Assembly (NCBI RefSeq): GCF_023277115.1
Contig: NZ_JALQCS010000001.1
Coordinates: forward strand, 248,001 to 312,000
Origin: Acidithiobacillus acidisediminis
GTDB lineage: Bacteria; Pseudomonadota; Gammaproteobacteria; Acidithiobacillales; Acidithiobacillaceae
Direction of reading: 5' to 3'
Length of the DNA stretch: 64,000 nucleotides
Part shown: positions 47,890-56,168 of the stretch, piece after piece
How the letters are laid out: the number at the start of each line of letters is the position of its first letter
Position numbering within the stretch: the first letter of the stretch is position 1
Translations under genes and position numbers: made by a program
Notes under the pieces: generated by a model
What the model was told of the DNA's origin: nothing
The model's input: only the letters and a program-made list of their open reading frames with translations
Databases searched by the model: none

Positions 47890-48978
47890 TCAGTGGGCGG
47901 CGTAGACACTCTTTTTGGTGAAGCGTCCGCGGAAGACCCAGATCTGGTACCAGTTGTACATGATCATGACCGGCACGAACCCGGTCATGAACAAGGTGAA
48001 CACCGCGAGAGAATTGGCCGGATTGGCAGCATTATGGATGGTCCAGGTGCCAGGCACGATGTAGGGGTACATGGTCGCCCACATCGCCGCCCAGAGCAGC
48101 GCCACGACACCCTCGCCCCAGAGCAGGGCAATAAAATTATGCCCGGTAGAGTGGTTGCTCATGGACTTGAAGGCGAAGAACAGAACCACCACCATCCAGA
48201 TCGCCCAAATCCACCAATTGGGGCCAGTCCACTTGGCCGCGGCCCAGGGGAAAATGGCATAAGACCAGACCAGGGTAACGACGATGGCCGCCAGGGCAAG
48301 CAAGGAAAACAGGGTGGTCCAACCCTTGGCGCGCTCGTGGATGACATCGCCGGGCACAAAACGGGCACAGAGATACAGGCCGCCGGCCAATCCCGCCGCA
48401 ATGACCGCGCCAAAGCCGGTCCAGATGCTGAACCAACTCAGCCAGACAAAGGCACCGCCGGAGAAGTGCAGGACCGGGGTGCTGTAGTCTCGGCCCGCAA
48501 TGTGGGACATGGCGAGACCGCTCTGCATAGGGAAGCCCTGTAGGCTAGCACCCAGGGCCACGCCCGCGAAGAAGGGCGCCAGCAGGCTGCCAATGGCGAA
48601 AAACCAGCCCCAGAGGCGCCGGCTGCTGCGCGCATGAATGTGGAATTCAAAGGCCACGGCGCGCATGATGATGGCCCATAGGGCAATCATCAGGGGAATC
48701 ATCAGATAGTTGAAGGCCGAGCCATAGACCAGAGGAAAGGCGCCGAAGAGGACGCCCCCAGCAACGACCAACCAGGTTTCGTTGCCATCCCAAAAACCGG
48801 CCATCGACGCCATGATGGCGCCGCGCTCGTCTTCATCCTTGGAAAACAAAGCAAAGATCCCGGCGCCGAGGTCAGCGCCATCCAACGCAATGTAAAAAAG
48901 AAACATCAGCCCCAACAACATCCACCACCAGGTGGAAAGGGCTGAGGTAATCCGCACGATATCGTGGGCAAAATCCAT
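47890..48978 (-). CDS. cydB: Cytochrome bd-type quinol oxidase subunit II
   Basis: The 362-residue protein has about 9 membrane helices. It starts with WWWMLLGLMFLFYIALDGAD, followed by GAGIFALFSKDEDERGAIMA and FWDGNETWLVVAGGVLFGAFP, the family signature. ATG 48978 has AAGGAGGT 5 bases upstream. It follows cydA by 55 bases. A 374-residue reading from the upstream in-frame start is less likely. The oxidase transfers electrons from quinol to oxygen and may be the cyanide-insensitive type. Confidence 0.94.
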   Translation of the reverse strand: MDFAHDIVRITSALSTWWWMLLGLMFLFYIALDGADLGAGIFALFSKDEDERGAIMASMAGFWDGNETWLVVAGGVLFGAFPLVYGSAFNYLMIPLMIALWAIIMRAVAFEFHIHARSSRRLWGWFFAIGSLLAPFFAGVALGASLQGFPMQSGLAMSHIAGRDYSTPVLHFSGGAFVWLSWFSIWTGFGAVIAAGLAGGLYLCARFVPGDVIHERAKGWTTLFSLLALAAIVVTLVWSYAIFPWAAAKWTGPNWWIWAIWMVVVLFFAFKSMSNHSTGHNFIALLWGEGVVALLWAAMWATMYPYIVPGTWTIHNAANPANSLAVFTLFMTGFVPVMIMYNWYQIWVFRGRFTKKSVYAAH

Positions 48979-49033
48979 GGTGACCTCCTTCACAATCAAC
49001 AACAGGGGCGGCACCGAGCCGCCCCGTCTACTC

Positions 49034-50497
49034 TCAGCGTTCTGCTTTCAAGACCGGCTTGGCAAAGCTAGCCTGGGCGTGACCACCACCAGCGTGGGCG
49101 TCATCCGCACTGCTAGAGTCGTGATGAAACAGGTGCTCGGAAGGCGCAATACCATCTACCCCCTTGGCAATCACGCGAGCGAAGAAGTACCAAGCCCCCG
49201 CCCAAACCAAGAGTTCGAAGACAATGTAGCCAGCAAACCAGACCAATTCCTGTGCCACGCTCATGTGGCTGACGCCCTCGTAGGTACGCATCAACCCGTA
49301 CACTACCCATGGCTGACGCCCGATCTCGCGTACCCACCAGCCCGTCCAGATGGCCAGGTAGGGGAGGAAGCCCGCGAAAATCACCGCGCGGAGAAACCAC
49401 TTATTCTGGCGCAGGGAGACGCCGTCCAACTTACCGCGCAGCCGCAGCCAATTGCCCCAGAGTGCTACGAAGAAGAGGAAGAAACCAATCGCCACCATCG
49501 CGCGGAAGGCATAGAAGGGCACCCAGACGTCTGGGCGATCCTGCGGAGCAAACTGGTCCATACCCTTCACCGTTCCATCCCAGGTATGGGTCTCGAGCAA
49601 GCTCAGCACGTGGGGAATAGCGATCTGGAATACGTTGCCATCATTGTTGGCATTCGGAAATGCGATCAGGTTCCAGTTGGTGTTCGGCTTCCCGTCCGGC
49701 AGGTAGGTGTGGTAATGACCTTCCATCGCCGCCAGAGAAGTCGGCTGAGTATCAGCAACATCCTTGCCCGCACTATCGCCGATGAAGATCTGCAATGGCG
49801 TGACAATGAGCAGGGCCAGCAAGGTCGGTTTCAGGAGCTTGGCGAAGAGATCCGCATGGCGGTTCTTCAAAATGAACCAGGCACTGACACTGGCGAACAC
49901 AAAGAGCGAGAGCTCAATGGTCGCTACCCACATGTGCGGAAATCCCCAAACGAAATTGTCATTGATAATCGCATGCCACCAGTTCTCCACCTGGAACAGG
50001 CCATCCTTGAGCACGACGCCATTGGGCGTTTGCATCCAGGAGTTCGCGACCAGAATCCACATGGCCGACAAACTGGAGGAAATGCCAACGTTCAAAGTAG
50101 CAAAAAGATGCATGCCTTTGCTGATCTTGCCCCAGCCAAAGACCATCAGACCAATGAAACCGGCCTCGTACATGAAGGCGGTAATGGTCTCGAAGCCGAG
50201 AATATTGCCAAAGAAGGGCCCGACGGCCTGGGAGAACGGCCCATAGAGAATACCGAAGGCCATTTCCATGGTGACGCCGGTGGCAACACCAGCACCAAAA
50301 TTGATGATGAAGATCTTTTCGAAGAAACGATTGAGCTTGTACCAGCGCTCATCCCCGCTGCGCAACCACGCAACTTCGAGAAAGAACAGTAACCAGGACA
50401 TACCGATGGTCAGCGGCGTCCAGAGAATGTGCATGGTGGTAATCCATGCAAAATCGAGCCGACTGAGCAAAACCGGCAAACTATTTTCGATGATCAT
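49034..50497 (-). CDS. cydA: Cytochrome bd-type quinol oxidase subunit I
   Basis: The 487-residue protein has about 9 membrane helices. Heme-ligating His residues lie in LSRLDFAWITTMHILWTPLT (His near residue 19) and a later His; the Met ligand is probably in the GTVKGMDQ-to-helix region. The quinol-binding loop with GRQPWVVYGLMRTYEGVS is short, as in CioA/short-Q-loop enzymes. The companion cydB follows. No cydX-like or cydCD genes are present. It would allow growth at low oxygen or under sulfide/NO stress. Confidence 0.94.
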   Translation of the reverse strand: MIIENSLPVLLSRLDFAWITTMHILWTPLTIGMSWLLFFLEVAWLRSGDERWYKLNRFFEKIFIINFGAGVATGVTMEMAFGILYGPFSQAVGPFFGNILGFETITAFMYEAGFIGLMVFGWGKISKGMHLFATLNVGISSSLSAMWILVANSWMQTPNGVVLKDGLFQVENWWHAIINDNFVWGFPHMWVATIELSLFVFASVSAWFILKNRHADLFAKLLKPTLLALLIVTPLQIFIGDSAGKDVADTQPTSLAAMEGHYHTYLPDGKPNTNWNLIAFPNANNDGNVFQIAIPHVLSLLETHTWDGTVKGMDQFAPQDRPDVWVPFYAFRAMVAIGFFLFFVALWGNWLRLRGKLDGVSLRQNKWFLRAVIFAGFLPYLAIWTGWWVREIGRQPWVVYGLMRTYEGVSHMSVAQELVWFAGYIVFELLVWAGAWYFFARVIAKGVDGIAPSEHLFHHDSSSADDAHAGGGHAQASFAKPVLKAER

Positions 50498-50678: not shown

Positions 50679-50805
50679 CCCAATATAAACATATACGTAG
50701 ATATTTTTATTGGCTTTTCATTCTGTCGCTTGCGGACGTCGCGTGCTTCTCCTACGCTTTTCTTGAGACTCTATGAACGTAACTCTCAGCCCCAGGAGAA
50801 TAGAC

Positions 50806-52425
50806 ATGAGCGCAGCACAATTGCAGGACTCCCCAGCGTGGCAACGATTGCAACAACTGCGTGCCGATTGGGGCAAAACCAGCATCGCCGAACTCTTCGC
50901 CGCGAGCCCCGAGCGCGGCACGCGGATGGTGGCTGAAGGCTGTGGCATTTATCTCGACTACTCGAAAAACTGGCTGCGCGAAGATACCCTCGCCGCACTC
51001 CTCGCCCTTGCGCAAGAGCGCGGCTTGGAAGCGCGCCGTGCCGCCATGTTTGCTGGTGAACACATCAATGGCACGGAAGACCGCGCCGTTCTGCATGTCG
51101 CCCTGCGCGCACCGGCCAGTGCGCAGATCCATGACCAGGGAAGTAATGTGGTTCCCGAGGTACAGGCCGTCTTGGACCGCATGGCGGCCTTTTGTGAGCA
51201 GGTCCACCAAGGCGACTGGTTGGGGGCAACGAGCCAGCGCCTGCGGCAGATCGTCAACATTGGCATTGGTGGCTCTTACCTGGGCCCAGAAATGGCCTAT
51301 CAGGCCTTGCGTCGGCAACGCCTGCCCGGGATCCGTGAATATTTTGTCGCCAATGTCGATGGCGCCGCTCTGGAGGCGGTACTGGCGGAGCTCGATCCCG
51401 CGCAGACGCTGTTTATCATCGCTTCGAAAACCTTCACCACCCTGGAAACCATGACCAACGCCCATGCGGCACGACGCTGGTTGGTCGCGGCCTTGGGCGA
51501 GGCTGCAGTAGAGCGACATTTCGTGGCGGTATCCACCAACCACGAGGCCGTTGCCGCCTTTGGCATGAATCCGGAGCACAGCTTTGGCTTTTGGGATTGG
51601 GTGGGGGGGCGCTATTCCATGGATTCGGCCATCGGTCTGGCGACGATGCTGGCCATCGGCCCAGAGGCCTTCCGGGAAATGTTGCGCGGTTTTCATGCCA
51701 TGGACGAGCATTTCCTGCATACCCCGTTGGCGCAGAACCTGCCCGTTCTGCTGGGCATGATTGCGATCTGGTACAACAATTTCTGGGGGGCGCAGAGCCA
51801 GGCGATTCTGCCCTACGCCCACGATCTTGCGCGCTTCCCCGCCTATCTGCAGCAATTGCAGATGGAAAGCAACGGCAAACGGGTCGATCTCCATGGAACA
51901 ACGCTGACGGTGGACAGCGGGCCGATCATCTGGGGCGAGCCGGGCACCGATGGCCAACATTCCTTTTATCAGCTGCTACACCAAGGTACGCGCCTGGTAC
52001 CCAGCGATTTCATTGGTTTTGTCCAGCCGTTGAGTGATTTCGGCGCGCAGCATGACCTGCTCATGGCCAATCTCTTCGCCCAGAGCGAGGCCCTGGCATT
52101 TGGTCGCTCGGCGGAAGAGCTGCGCGCTCTCGGCGTCGCCGAGACGCAGATTCCCCATCGCGTCTCCCCTGGCAATCGACCGAGCAACCTGCTGCTCGTC
52201 GATGCCCTGACACCGTTTTCCCTCGGCGCCCTGGTCGCACTCTATGAGCACAGCGTCTTCACCCAAGGGGTGATCTGGGGTATCGACTCTTTCGACCAGT
52301 GGGGGGTGGAGCTGGGCAAGGTCCTCGCGCAGCGGGTAGAAACCGACCTGCAGGGGAAGACGAAGAACACCCATGACCGCTCTACACAGAACCTGATCGA
52401 GCGGTATCGGTCGCAACGCAGCTAG
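50806..52425 (+). CDS. pgi: Glucose-6-phosphate isomerase
   Basis: This 539-residue enzyme interconverts glucose-6-phosphate and fructose-6-phosphate. It has [57 protein letters not shown] and [23 protein letters not shown] 50806 has AGGAG 7 bases upstream. GDP-mannose and UDP-glucose synthesis for the polysaccharide cluster depend on its product. Confidence 0.96.
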
Positions 52426-52494
52426 GCAGCGGGAACTTTTCCCGGCGGCAGTTTTTCCAAGGGAAAATCTTTCTCACTGAGACCTGCCGCCCCT

Positions 52495-53646
52495 ATGAAA
52501 AAATCTGCTGCTTTTTTTGCCTTCTTCCTGGTCTCGGGTAGTGCCTACGCGGTGGTACCGACGCCTACCCTGCCAGCGCCACCTCCCATGCCCGCGCCCC
52601 AGATTGGCGGCGTCAAGGCGGCGGTATTGCTCGACGTCAATACCGATCAGATCCTCCTTGATCAGAATGGGAACACGAGTTTCGATCCCTCGGGCTTGGT
52701 GAAGCTCATGACGGCCTATCTCCTCTATCAAGCCGAGGCACAAAAGATGGTACAGCCGGGCGAGCGAATTTCCGTCTCGGTCGATGCTTGGCACGCCCCC
52801 GGTTCGCGCATGTTCATTCAACCAGGCTTGCCGGTGACAGTGGACCAGCTTACCCATGGCTTGTTGATCGATGGGGGAAATGACGCTGCCATCGCCATTG
52901 CGCAGGCGGTAGCGGGCAGTGTCGGCGGCTTTGTCGATCTGATGAACCGCGAGGCGGCCGGGATGGGACTGCGGCAGACCCATTTCGTCAATCCCGACGG
53001 GATGCCGACACCGGGGCAGCGCAGCACTGCAGTGGACATGGCGCGTCTGGCGCGGGCTCTGCTGGTGAAATTTCCCCAGGTGGCGAAGATCGCTGGCCAG
53101 GCAAGCTATCAGTACAACCACATTACCCAGTACAACTACAATCCCCTGGCCGGCCAAAAGGACATCACTGGCCTGGGGGTGGGCCTGGCATCTGCCGACA
53201 ACTGGGATCTGGCGGTCAGTGCCAGCAAGGATGGACGCGGCTTGGTGGCGGTGATTTTGGGCGCCAGCTCGCGCGCCGTCGCCGGTACCGACGCCTCGGC
53301 CATGCTCCACTATGGCTTTCACGGCTGGCAAGAGCGCCAGGTCTACCCCGCCGGCGCCATCGTCGCACAGCTCAAGCGCGTGGACTGGTCGCCGGAAACG
53401 CTTTCGGTGATCACGCCCAAGACGATTCAGGTGGTCGTTCCCAAGCCCAGTCAAGGCAAGGTAGAGAGCCGCTTCGTTGCTGATCCTACATTGCAGGCGC
53501 CGCTGAAGGCCAATACTCAAGTTGGTACTCTCGATCTTCTCTGGAATGGTAAGGTGCTGAAGAGCGAACCGGTGCTGGCGAAAAACGCCGTTGCCAAGGC
53601 CGGTTGGTTCAGTCGCCTCTGGCATCGGGTGCGGGGGTCGCTGTGA
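52495..53646 (+). CDS. PBP5-like D-alanyl-D-alanine carboxypeptidase homologue with degenerate active site
   Basis: This 383-residue protein has a signal peptide (AAFFAFFLVSGSAYA), a proline-rich linker and a peptidase S11 fold. The fold shows through KAAVLLDVNTDQILLDQNGN, PGSRMFIQPGLPVTVDQLTH and MNREAAGMGLRQTHFVNPDG. The catalytic motifs are changed: SxxK is GLVK (DPSGLVKLMT), SxN is GGN (IDGGNDAAIA) and KTG is ITG (KDITGLGVG). A C-terminal beta-domain (PBP5_C-like) follows. It may be a non-enzymatic peptidoglycan binder. It is followed by the class A PBP gene after 41 bases. Confidence 0.85.
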   Translation: MKKSAAFFAFFLVSGSAYAVVPTPTLPAPPPMPAPQIGGVKAAVLLDVNTDQILLDQNGNTSFDPSGLVKLMTAYLLYQAEAQKMVQPGERISVSVDAWHAPGSRMFIQPGLPVTVDQLTHGLLIDGGNDAAIAIAQAVAGSVGGFVDLMNREAAGMGLRQTHFVNPDGMPTPGQRSTAVDMARLARALLVKFPQVAKIAGQASYQYNHITQYNYNPLAGQKDITGLGVGLASADNWDLAVSASKDGRGLVAVILGASSRAVAGTDASAMLHYGFHGWQERQVYPAGAIVAQLKRVDWSPETLSVITPKTIQVVVPKPSQGKVESRFVADPTLQAPLKANTQVGTLDLLWNGKVLKSEPVLAKNAVAKAGWFSRLWHRVRGSL

Positions 53647-53687
53647 TTTTTCCGTGCCACTCTGCACCGCTACACGCGGTTTGAGCC

Positions 53688-56168
53688 ATGGGTAGGAGCG
53701 CCTTTTTTCGCCACCGGAGCTGGCGGTTCTGGTTCGTGTTGATTGTCCTCTTTGTGTTGCTGGATGCCACCGTCGGCGCCGGCTTCTGGACCTACCGCAT
53801 CTGGCAAAAGTTGCCACCAGTACGCGAGTTACAGCATTGGCACCCGGCCGAACCACTGCGCATCTACGCAAACAATGGGCAGTTGCTGCAGGTCATTGGC
53901 CCGCAATTACGCTATGCCCTGCCCTTGGACCAAGTCCCTAAGCATTTGCAGGATGCCTTCATCGCGGCAGAAAACTCCAAGTTTTACAGTCACAACCCGC
54001 TCTATTACCCGGTCAGTTTTCCCGGCATTTTTCGCGCCGCCTGGGTGGATCTGATTCATTGGGGACCGGTGCAAGGAGCGAGCACCATTACCGAGCAGGT
54101 GGCGCGGAATTTCTATCTGACGCCGAAAAAGACCATTACGCGCAAGGTGGCGGAAATCCTTCTGGCCTACAAATTGGCGCATCACTTGGATCGGGCGCAG
54201 ATTCTCGATCTCTACGTGAATAAGATCTATTTGGGTGAGGGGGCCTATGGGGTACAGGCGGCGGCCGAGACCTACTATGGCAAGACGGTTTCGCAACTCA
54301 GCTTGGGGGAGATGGCGACCCTGGCTGGCCTGCCCGCCGCGCCCTCGGCCTTCAACCCCATCGCCTCGCCTGCCTCGGCAAAGACCCGCCGGGATTATGT
54401 TCTACGGCGTATGGCTAAACTCGGCTTCATCAGCGAAGCTGCCGCCCAGCGTGCCATCGCCAAACCCATCGAGGCGCGCTATCACGCCCCGGCCAGCAAC
54501 CTGGCGCCCTACGCCACCGACTGGATCCGCACCTGGCTGGAAAAACACTTCGGGCCAGACTTTACCTATCGCAGCGGTTTACGGGTGTATACGAGCATCG
54601 ATCCGCGCGATCAACAGGCGGCCAGCAAGGACATGGCCATTGGCCTGGAGAACTATGGCATGGGCCTGGACAGCATGGACCCCAAGGCCTGGCGCGGCCC
54701 GATCGCCCAGCTTCACGGACAGATGCTGTACACGGCCCTGCGCGGCCAGCGCCCCCCCATGTTGCCGGACTATGATCCCGCCAATCTCCGTTGGGCCGTT
54801 GTAAAGAACGTGAATGCCCGCGAAGCGCAGATCGAGATCGAAGGGCAGCAGGCAGCCACGCTGAGCCTGCGACAAGTGGGCTGGGCGCGCCTACGGCCCA
54901 ATGGCGAGCGCCCAACGGCGGTGGATCAGGTGCTGGTGCCGGGGGATCTCATCTGGGTCCGGCATTACGTTGCAACCACCACCGAAGGCACGGGAAATCC
55001 GGTCTGGGGTACCAGGGTTTGGCATGACGTTCCCCACGGCGGCTGGCAATTGGCACAGATTCCGCACGTGCAAGGCGCGCTGGTTTCGTTAAACAGCCAC
55101 AGTGGCGCAATCCTCGCCCTGGTAGGAGGCTTCAGCTATGACCTCAGCCACTTCGACCGCGCTCTGTACTCTTACCGACAACCGGGTTCTGGCTTCAAGC
55201 CCTTCGTCTACGCGTCGGCGATCGATGCCCCCGCCTTGCTGGCCAGTGGACACAAGGGTTACTACACCCCAGTATCCTTGATTGCGGATACGCCCCTCGT
55301 CATTCACCTGGCGGATGGGCAGATCTACGCACCCACCAATTACAGCCGCACCTTCTCCAAGGTCCCATTCCCCATCTGGGAAGACCTCGCCGACTCCCAT
55401 AATGTGCCCAGCGTGCGCCTGCTCATGGATGTCGGCATTCCCTACGCGAAAACCTACGTGCAGCGCTTTGGCTTCCCTGCCAAGCAGATCCCGGCTACGC
55501 CCTCCATGGTCCTGGGAGCTGGGGATTTCACACCGCTGCAGATGGCCAAGGCCTACGCCACCTTCTCTAGCGGCGGTTTCCTGCCCCATCCCTACCTCAT
55601 CCGCAAGGTGGTCACCGCCGATGGCACCCAGGTCGCACTGCTGCATTGCCCCCTGGCCTATCAGCCACCAGCAACGCAGACGGTAATCCCGCCTGGGGTT
55701 GCCTATCTGATGACGCGGATGATGGAACGGGTGATTCGCGTCGGAACCGGGGTGGCAGCGCAGATCCTGCACCGTCATGACCTAGCGGGCAAGACAGGGA
55801 CCACCAATGCGGAAGAGAATGCCTGGTTCAATGGTTTCAATCCGCAGATCACGACATCCGTATGGGTAGGCTATGACGATAACCATACGATGGGGACCTG
55901 GGCGGCGGGGGCGCGAGAGGCCTTGCCCATTTGGATCCGCTACATGGGAACGGCGCTACAGGGCATGCCCGACAACGGCTTTTTCATACCTCCAGACGTG
56001 GTCACCGCACAATACAATCCCCGCACTGGCACCTTGGCGGATCCTGGAGCCCATGCCGGCCCCAGTAAAGGGGGATACTTTCTGGCTGGCTATTTGCCGC
56101 CCAAACCAAAGGCGCAAGAGCAGCGCGAAGAGCAAAGTTTCGTGCACGCACTGATGAGGATGTTCTAG
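53688..56168 (+). CDS. mrcA: Class A penicillin-binding protein 1 (transglycosylase/transpeptidase)
   Basis: The 826-residue protein has an N-terminal membrane anchor (residues ~12-34). The GT51 domain has AAENSKFYSH (E of the ED/EN motif), GASTITEQVARN and ILDLYVNKIYLGEGAYGVQA. The transpeptidase domain has intact SxxK (RQPGSGFKPF), SxN (ADSHNVPS) and KTG (LAGKTGTTN). An OB-like insert lies between. It builds and cross-links peptidoglycan. Its neighbour upstream is the degenerate DD-carboxypeptidase, and the two are probably co-transcribed. Confidence 0.93.
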   Translation: MGRSAFFRHRSWRFWFVLIVLFVLLDATVGAGFWTYRIWQKLPPVRELQHWHPAEPLRIYANNGQLLQVIGPQLRYALPLDQVPKHLQDAFIAAENSKFYSHNPLYYPVSFPGIFRAAWVDLIHWGPVQGASTITEQVARNFYLTPKKTITRKVAEILLAYKLAHHLDRAQILDLYVNKIYLGEGAYGVQAAAETYYGKTVSQLSLGEMATLAGLPAAPSAFNPIASPASAKTRRDYVLRRMAKLGFISEAAAQRAIAKPIEARYHAPASNLAPYATDWIRTWLEKHFGPDFTYRSGLRVYTSIDPRDQQAASKDMAIGLENYGMGLDSMDPKAWRGPIAQLHGQMLYTALRGQRPPMLPDYDPANLRWAVVKNVNAREAQIEIEGQQAATLSLRQVGWARLRPNGERPTAVDQVLVPGDLIWVRHYVATTTEGTGNPVWGTRVWHDVPHGGWQLAQIPHVQGALVSLNSHSGAILALVGGFSYDLSHFDRALYSYRQPGSGFKPFVYASAIDAPALLASGHKGYYTPVSLIADTPLVIHLADGQIYAPTNYSRTFSKVPFPIWEDLADSHNVPSVRLLMDVGIPYAKTYVQRFGFPAKQIPATPSMVLGAGDFTPLQMAKAYATFSSGGFLPHPYLIRKVVTADGTQVALLHCPLAYQPPATQTVIPPGVAYLMTRMMERVIRVGTGVAAQILHRHDLAGKTGTTNAEENAWFNGFNPQITTSVWVGYDDNHTMGTWAAGAREALPIWIRYMGTALQGMPDNGFFIPPDVVTAQYNPRTGTLADPGAHAGPSKGGYFLAGYLPPKPKAQEQREEQSFVHALMRMF

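Follow-up and report, generated by a model that had tools for sequence, protein, structure and literature searches.

What might a DD-carboxypeptidase of the PBP5 type be kept for once its catalytic residues are gone? The question is raised by a gene in the window, by which we mean the whole stretch of 64,000 nucleotides from Acidithiobacillus acidisediminis that was analysed. An earlier note, made from the letters alone, had read this gene as a PBP5-like protein with all three catalytic motifs lost, had suggested a stable pseudo-enzyme, and had proposed that it may regulate or anchor the class A penicillin-binding protein (PBP) encoded downstream. Here, we set the gene against its relatives within the Acidithiobacillaceae and beyond, and find its product to be a new, clade-wide branch of the known S11 family.

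Results

Gene, product and fold

The features to which we refer are the following.

50773..52425, + strand: glucose-6-phosphate isomerase (Pfam PF00342, 664.2 bits), with a 69-base gap before the pseudo-enzyme gene
52495..53646, + strand: pseudo-DD-carboxypeptidase gene (PBP5-like), recognised by its open reading frame, its Pfam matches and a model with the S11 fold (mean pLDDT 77.3)
52495..52551, + strand: probable Sec signal peptide (residues 1-19), then a Pro-rich linker; read from the sequence
53326..53598, + strand: PBP5_C pedestal domain (residues 278-368; Pfam PF07943, 49.1 bits)
53605..53643, + strand: C-terminal helix, probable membrane anchor (about residues 371-383; helix 371-382 in the model)
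53688..56168, + strand: class A PBP of the PBP1A family (PBP_a), motifs intact; possible co-transcribed partner

The pseudo-enzyme gene runs from ATG to TGA free of frameshifts and encodes 383 amino acids. Its product matches Peptidase_S11 over residues 41-258 (1.7e-48, 165.6 bits, gathering cut-off 27.6) and PBP5_C over residues 278-368 (6.5e-13, cut-off 21.2 bits), Beta-lactamase2 being the only other Pfam family that it matches. Its scores for the NCBIfam equivalogs of DacA, DacD and the PRK10001 carboxypeptidase all stay below the curated cut-offs; the best, 204.3 bits for NF008489, compares with a required 610. By sequence, the nearest solved structures are 4k91 (the best, 2.8e-59), 5tr7 and 3it9, all of them PBP5/PBP6 enzymes, and the AlphaFold2 model, for which seven sequences were supplied, agrees with this assignment. 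VIA-align superposed it on 4k91_B with a Z of 33.4 (330 residues, rmsd 12.7 Å) and on 5tr7_A with a Z of 32.4 (242 residues, rmsd 2.0 Å), and Foldseek matched it to the PBP6 structure 3it9_A at 2.4e-28; the fold is thus PBP5/PBP6-like, and the high rmsd over two domains is probably caused by the angle between them in a model of moderate quality.

The signal peptide would place the protein in the periplasm, and we regard its C-terminus as a probable membrane anchor because of its position and its predicted helix. The hydrophobic moment of this segment did not exceed that of shuffled sequences in the window copy (p 0.21), and amphipathicity was above shuffles in six of nine other orthologues (p < 0.05, uncorrected, with the best stretch picked in each). 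On the opposite strand, a frame of 465 amino acids with a TTG start (52474-53871, - strand) spans the whole gene; it is probably not a gene itself, and further long antisense frames are also present in the window.

Loss of the three catalytic motifs

The three motif positions are occupied as follows.

52690..52704, + strand: dead SxxK motif (S66-G67-L68-V69-K70; active relatives have mostly A-S-L-T-K)
52873..52881, + strand: dead SxN motif (G127-G128-N129)
53176..53184, + strand: dead KTG motif (G228-V229-G230)

In motif 1 (P65-S66-G67-L68-V69-K70), the SxxK serine is replaced by Gly67 and the lysine is kept; in motif 2, Gly127 stands in place of the SxN serine and Asn129 is kept. Both agree with the earlier readings of GLVK and GGN. 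The third motif had been read as ITG (residues 224-226, 53164-53172), which lies four residues off register: alignment with active homologues sets DGLKTGLT opposite TGLGVGLA, so that the motif columns are 228-230 with the residues GVG. Here the lysine and the threonine are both lost and only the final glycine is kept, which makes the loss slightly greater than first reported. The claim of a PBP5-like frame with three lost motifs is otherwise borne out, as the S11 and PBP5_C domains are present and none of SxxK, SxN and KTG/KSG, the marks of an active DD-carboxypeptidase, is found.

We placed the 27 orthologues described below in one alignment of 74 sequences together with 47 other S11 proteins, namely 16, 9 and 5 members of the paralogue groups parA, parB and parC and 17 sequences from genomes outside the family; 12 further parA sequences were used for substitution counts only. 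PSGLVK, GGN and GVG occur in 27/27 orthologues and in none of the 47 others, all of which have a serine nucleophile, SGN and K-T-G (K-S-G in five parC rows). With the same substitutions in every orthologue and in no other protein, the motif loss is not due to chance. Judged by its sequence, the protein is very likely catalytically dead, and it would be expected to show no activity in vitro; with its catalytic residues gone and its fold retained, it has the character of a pseudo-enzyme.

The remainder of the pocket has not drifted. K70, N129, D130, S104 and G230 are kept in both the pseudo-enzyme and the active paralogues. Nineteen columns are at least 96% conserved within the pseudo-enzyme clade and, as a different residue, at least 85% conserved in the active paralogues, and seven of these (66, 67, 69, 127, 228, 229, 232) belong to the three motifs or adjoin them. 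One such change, at residue 66, is serine in 27/27 pseudo-enzymes and alanine in the 47 active relatives, and was fixed together with the serine-to-glycine change at 67. All ten former active-site columns (66, 67, 69, 70, 127, 129, 228, 229, 230 and 232, chosen by hand) are at least 96% conserved, against a background of 110/218 columns in the catalytic domain (hypergeometric 0.0009). Since protein cores are conserved anyway, this frozen pocket is support for, not proof of, a use of the pocket.

Distribution and age

A homologue search of 57 genomes gave matches in 56. Within the Acidithiobacillaceae, 27/29 genomes carry an orthologue (at least 57% identity); the exceptions are G005 (completeness 61%) and G012 (71%), where the best matches fall in with the active parA. 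Two of the 27 copies, both in draft assemblies, are interrupted in frame (G001, and G025 near residue 50), interruptions that may stem from faulty assembly or from incipient decay; G025 is also without PBP_a. A maximum-likelihood tree joins the 27 orthologues in one clade with support of 100/100 on a stem of 1.28. This clade adjoins parA and parB of the same family (a pair supported at 96/86), and parC together with the S11 genes of the 17 outside genomes falls on the other side. The root was placed at the midpoint and the software flags long branches, but that the 27 pseudo-enzymes are monophyletic is not in doubt. Their placement indicates that the duplication and the loss of catalysis predate the diversification of the family. 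In the host genome, the pseudo-enzyme is one of four S11 genes, the other three being paralogues with intact motifs, by which catalysis is covered elsewhere. In several genomes of one genus (g2), parB and the pseudo-enzyme share a contig and lie about 8-12 kb apart (L093; G015:C168, G021:C25, G017:C13).

The strict signature was matched in 27/31 genomes of the order, those without it being two of its other family as well as G005 and G012. Across 369 genomes sampled from the class, the pattern P-x-G-[LF]-x-K-[LIVMF]-M-T matched in six, two of which (G000, the host, and G010) are the family's own; the other four matches lie at loci without an S11 match at E 0.1, and a reversed-pattern control matched in five. 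Within this sample, the signature in S11 genes is therefore confined to the Acidithiobacillaceae. As such a pattern finds near-identical signatures only, other kinds of dead S11 proteins may exist elsewhere.

The earlier note had named intact motifs in near relatives as the sign of decay. This comparison has now been made, and the orthologues are motif-dead throughout, which leads us to reject recent decay. Together with the single old clade and the low dN/dS described below, it upholds the suggestion of a stable pseudo-enzyme.

The neighbouring synthase

The isomerase gene lies upstream of the pseudo-enzyme in 24/27 genomes; of the remaining three loci, two run into a contig edge and one, that of G009, has the isomerase about 6 kb away. 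In the window, two adjoining genes that read as cytochrome bd-type oxidase subunits lie upstream of the isomerase (47890-50497, - strand). Downstream, a gap of 41 bases (53647-53687) precedes PBP_a, as the earlier note had observed. This protein reaches 518.2 bits against TIGR02074 (PBP_1a_fam, cut-off 508.75) and looks intact, since SGFK, SHN and KTG are all present in its translation. No promoter-like sites were found between 50500 and 56500, where terminator-like sites numbered 5 vs 4.3 by chance.

PBP_a directly follows the pseudo-enzyme in 20/27 genomes of four genera, a conserved adjacency. It is absent, locally and genome-wide, from the remaining seven (G004, G011, G019, G020, G022, G025 and G026), all of which keep a motif-dead pseudo-enzyme, so that the two genes do not strictly co-occur. 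Mapped on the pseudo-enzyme gene tree, these absences amount to about four independent losses. What these seven genomes retain is PBP_b, a second class A PBP with 64-68% identity to PBP_a, and G019 and G020 have an additional, distant match at 29%. In G014, the pseudo-enzyme is followed by PBP_a and then a potassium-channel gene, and in G019, G020 and G022 directly by the channel gene, as if PBP_a had been removed; a similar gene lies 6-7 kb downstream in G011 and G026. The channel is named by reading of the sequence (loci L084, 7273-8589, - strand; L092, L083, L085, L086 and L087).

Two broken synthase genes were seen in passing. In G022, which is without PBP_a, the sole class A PBP found, PBP_b, is broken by a stop into two frames (C1:350035-352327); either the sequence is in error here, or the last class A PBP of this genome has been disrupted. 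In G002, a genome of six contigs, PBP_a is split into two frames (L007, C1:1155684-1158157) beside an intact pseudo-enzyme.

Selection

For pairs with dS < 1, the pseudo-enzyme has a dN/dS (Nei-Gojobori) of 0.05-0.27 with one outlier at 0.54, and parA in the same pairs has 0.045-0.128. The gene is thus under purifying selection and has been conserved over the long term. At larger distances (dS > 1, near saturation), values rise to 0.34 for the pseudo-enzyme as against 0.20 for parA, which suggests a somewhat higher rate of evolution in the pseudo-enzyme than in its active relative.

To assess relaxation, we took the ratio of amino-acid to silent changes in the pseudo-enzyme and set it against that in parA, using non-overlapping, hand-chosen pairs and no correction for multiple tests. 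The odds ratio (OR) was 2.21 in contrasts lacking PBP_a and 0.92 in contrasts retaining it (p 0.0023); other choices of pairs within the trio G019/G020/G022 gave 1.75 and 1.82 (p 0.026 and 0.015), and the neighbouring isomerase did not show this shift in these contrasts (p 0.31-0.44). Of the three contrasts on which the signal depends, G019-G020 (OR 6.3, p 0.001) and G025-G028 (OR 2.6, p 0.008; only G025 lacks PBP_a) showed the shift. It was not found in G011-G026 (OR 1.07, p 0.86), none of five PBP_a-retaining pairs was significant, and neither was the contrast within genus g2 alone (z 1.6). Looser selection after the loss of PBP_a is a hint of coupling between the two genes, not proof of it.

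Discussion

We consider it somewhat more probable than all other outcomes taken together (roughly 0.55) that the protein is anchored in the membrane and takes part in peptidoglycan synthesis without catalysis, its main, though not its only, partner in most species being the PBP1A-type synthase encoded beside it. On this account, a PBP5-type DD-carboxypeptidase would have been duplicated before the Acidithiobacillaceae diversified, giving rise to a putatively periplasmic protein. The loss of its nucleophile, of the SxN serine and of the KTG lysine and threonine would have ended both cleavage of D-Ala-D-Ala and acylation by penicillin, while the fold, the pedestal domain, K70, N129 and G230 with their neighbours, and the C-terminal helix are retained around a remodelled, now invariant pocket. 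Anchored in the inner membrane beside the synthase encoded next door, the protein might then govern the contacts of this synthase, or of the nascent strand, with other PBPs; where the synthase was lost, a second, smaller role would remain.

Two precedents make such a non-catalytic role the most likely one. The first is the S44G variant of E. coli PBP5, which is reported to bind no penicillin, to have no carboxypeptidase activity and to be dispersed (PMC2909392). Cells carrying it bulge and those with a dacA deletion are nearly normal, for which the authors suggest that divisome proteins are titrated or that elongation is interfered with (PMC5596342). The second is found in EnvC and NlpD, degenerate LytM factors described as inactive descendants of cell-wall hydrolases that regulate cell-wall enzymes (PMC8416486). 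Like them, the pseudo-enzyme is very likely a catalytically inactive descendant of a cell-wall hydrolase, for which we here propose regulation; unlike it, EnvC and NlpD belong to the LytM family and have amidases as partners.

With respect to the synthase, the proposal that the pseudo-enzyme regulates or anchors it holds in part. Adjacency in most genomes and the apparently looser selection after loss speak for a connection, and persistence in the seven genomes without PBP_a speaks against an exclusive one: the synthase cannot be the sole reason for the existence of the protein, and we reject PBP_a as an obligate partner. A bolder version, to which we would assign distinctly less than even odds, holds the protein to be the natural, family-wide counterpart of PBP5 S44G, which would regulate the PBP1A-type synthase without catalysis or sense stem peptides for it. 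Its pocket would then have been re-engineered and selectively maintained, and it would found a class of cell-wall regulators derived from PBPs, much as the degenerate LytM factors derive from hydrolases. The identical serine-to-glycine change at the nucleophile invites this comparison. S44G, however, is a single, artificial change, and the natural protein adds six clade-specific residues at the motifs or next to them (S66, V69, G127, G228, V229 and A232).

The conserved pocket might also serve directly. The dead groove could bind D-Ala-D-Ala stems non-covalently, as a reader or a shield that guards pentapeptides from the active carboxypeptidases and leaves them as donors for transpeptidases, an idea that we think unlikely. 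It would explain why the pocket positions have stayed fixed instead of drifting, and the shared residues K70, N129, D130, S104 and G230 line the groove in this fold. A protective role has been proposed for the weakly active PBP6a of E. coli (PMC5596342). Against it, S44G is reported to be without substrate binding and septal localisation (PMC2909392, PMC5596342), and the pseudo-enzyme has in addition lost the KTG lysine and threonine.

About equally improbable, in our estimation, is a partnership with the active paralogues, in which the pseudo-enzyme would dimerise with the parA and parB enzymes and tune them. Such paralogues do exist in the family, self-interactions of PBP5 and PBP6a that are altered by active-site mutation have been described in E. 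coli in vivo (PMC5596342), and persistence without PBP_a would be accounted for. The conserved position before PBP_a and the looser selection after its loss would be left unexplained.

We hold it very improbable that the nucleophile has merely moved, with Ser66 or another residue performing new chemistry in the remodelled pocket. The joint fixation of the changes at 66 and 67 beside a retained Lys70 speaks for it, yet the spacing is now SxxxK, and with the SxN serine and the KTG lysine and threonine gone the usual relay residues are missing. Least credible of all is a decaying pseudogene or an assembly artefact, to which the two frame breaks in draft assemblies might point and against which stand 25/27 open copies, motifs identical throughout, low dN/dS and an old clade.

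In fold and in the order of S11 domain, PBP5_C domain and C-terminal helix, the protein resembles PBP5, PBP6 and PBP6b of E. coli (DacA, DacC and DacD; MEROPS S11), being about 27% identical to PBP5, and it differs from them in the fixed absence of the nucleophile, the SxN serine and the KTG lysine and threonine. Among the papers searched, mostly openly available ones, we found none describing a PBP5-type protein that is dead and fixed throughout a family of bacteria. A membrane-vesicle proteome of 'Fervidacidithiobacillus caldus' lists carboxypeptidases 'DacC and MrcA', with no link to the pseudo-enzyme gene established (PMC10853474). Annotation of this protein by domain content as a carboxypeptidase and penicillin target would very probably be wrong. 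The roughly four lineages that lost the synthase and kept the pseudo-enzyme amount to a natural experiment on the function of an inactive PBP5, the question posed by the S44G phenotype, and the answer may bear on cell-wall management in extreme acidophiles. Overexpression of PBP5 is reported to rescue a PBP1A mutant of A. baumannii (PMC9765026).

Class A PBPs can have non-catalytic partners in the envelope. LpoA and LpoB are activators of PBP1A and PBP1B, and the pseudo-enzyme resembles them in its proposed role only: it is not homologous to them, and no LpoA or LpoB domain was detected in it at E 0.001. Of 12 genomes tested, 11, the host among them and G009 being the exception, encode an LpoA-type activator as a gene of its own, so that activation of PBP1A may already be covered. 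The idea of a substitute for a missing LpoA is weakened accordingly. LpoB gave a single sub-threshold match in the 12 genomes searched, at G000:C1:199516-199674 (L122) of the host, where a weak LpoB-like similarity scores 20.3 bits against a cut-off of 22.3.
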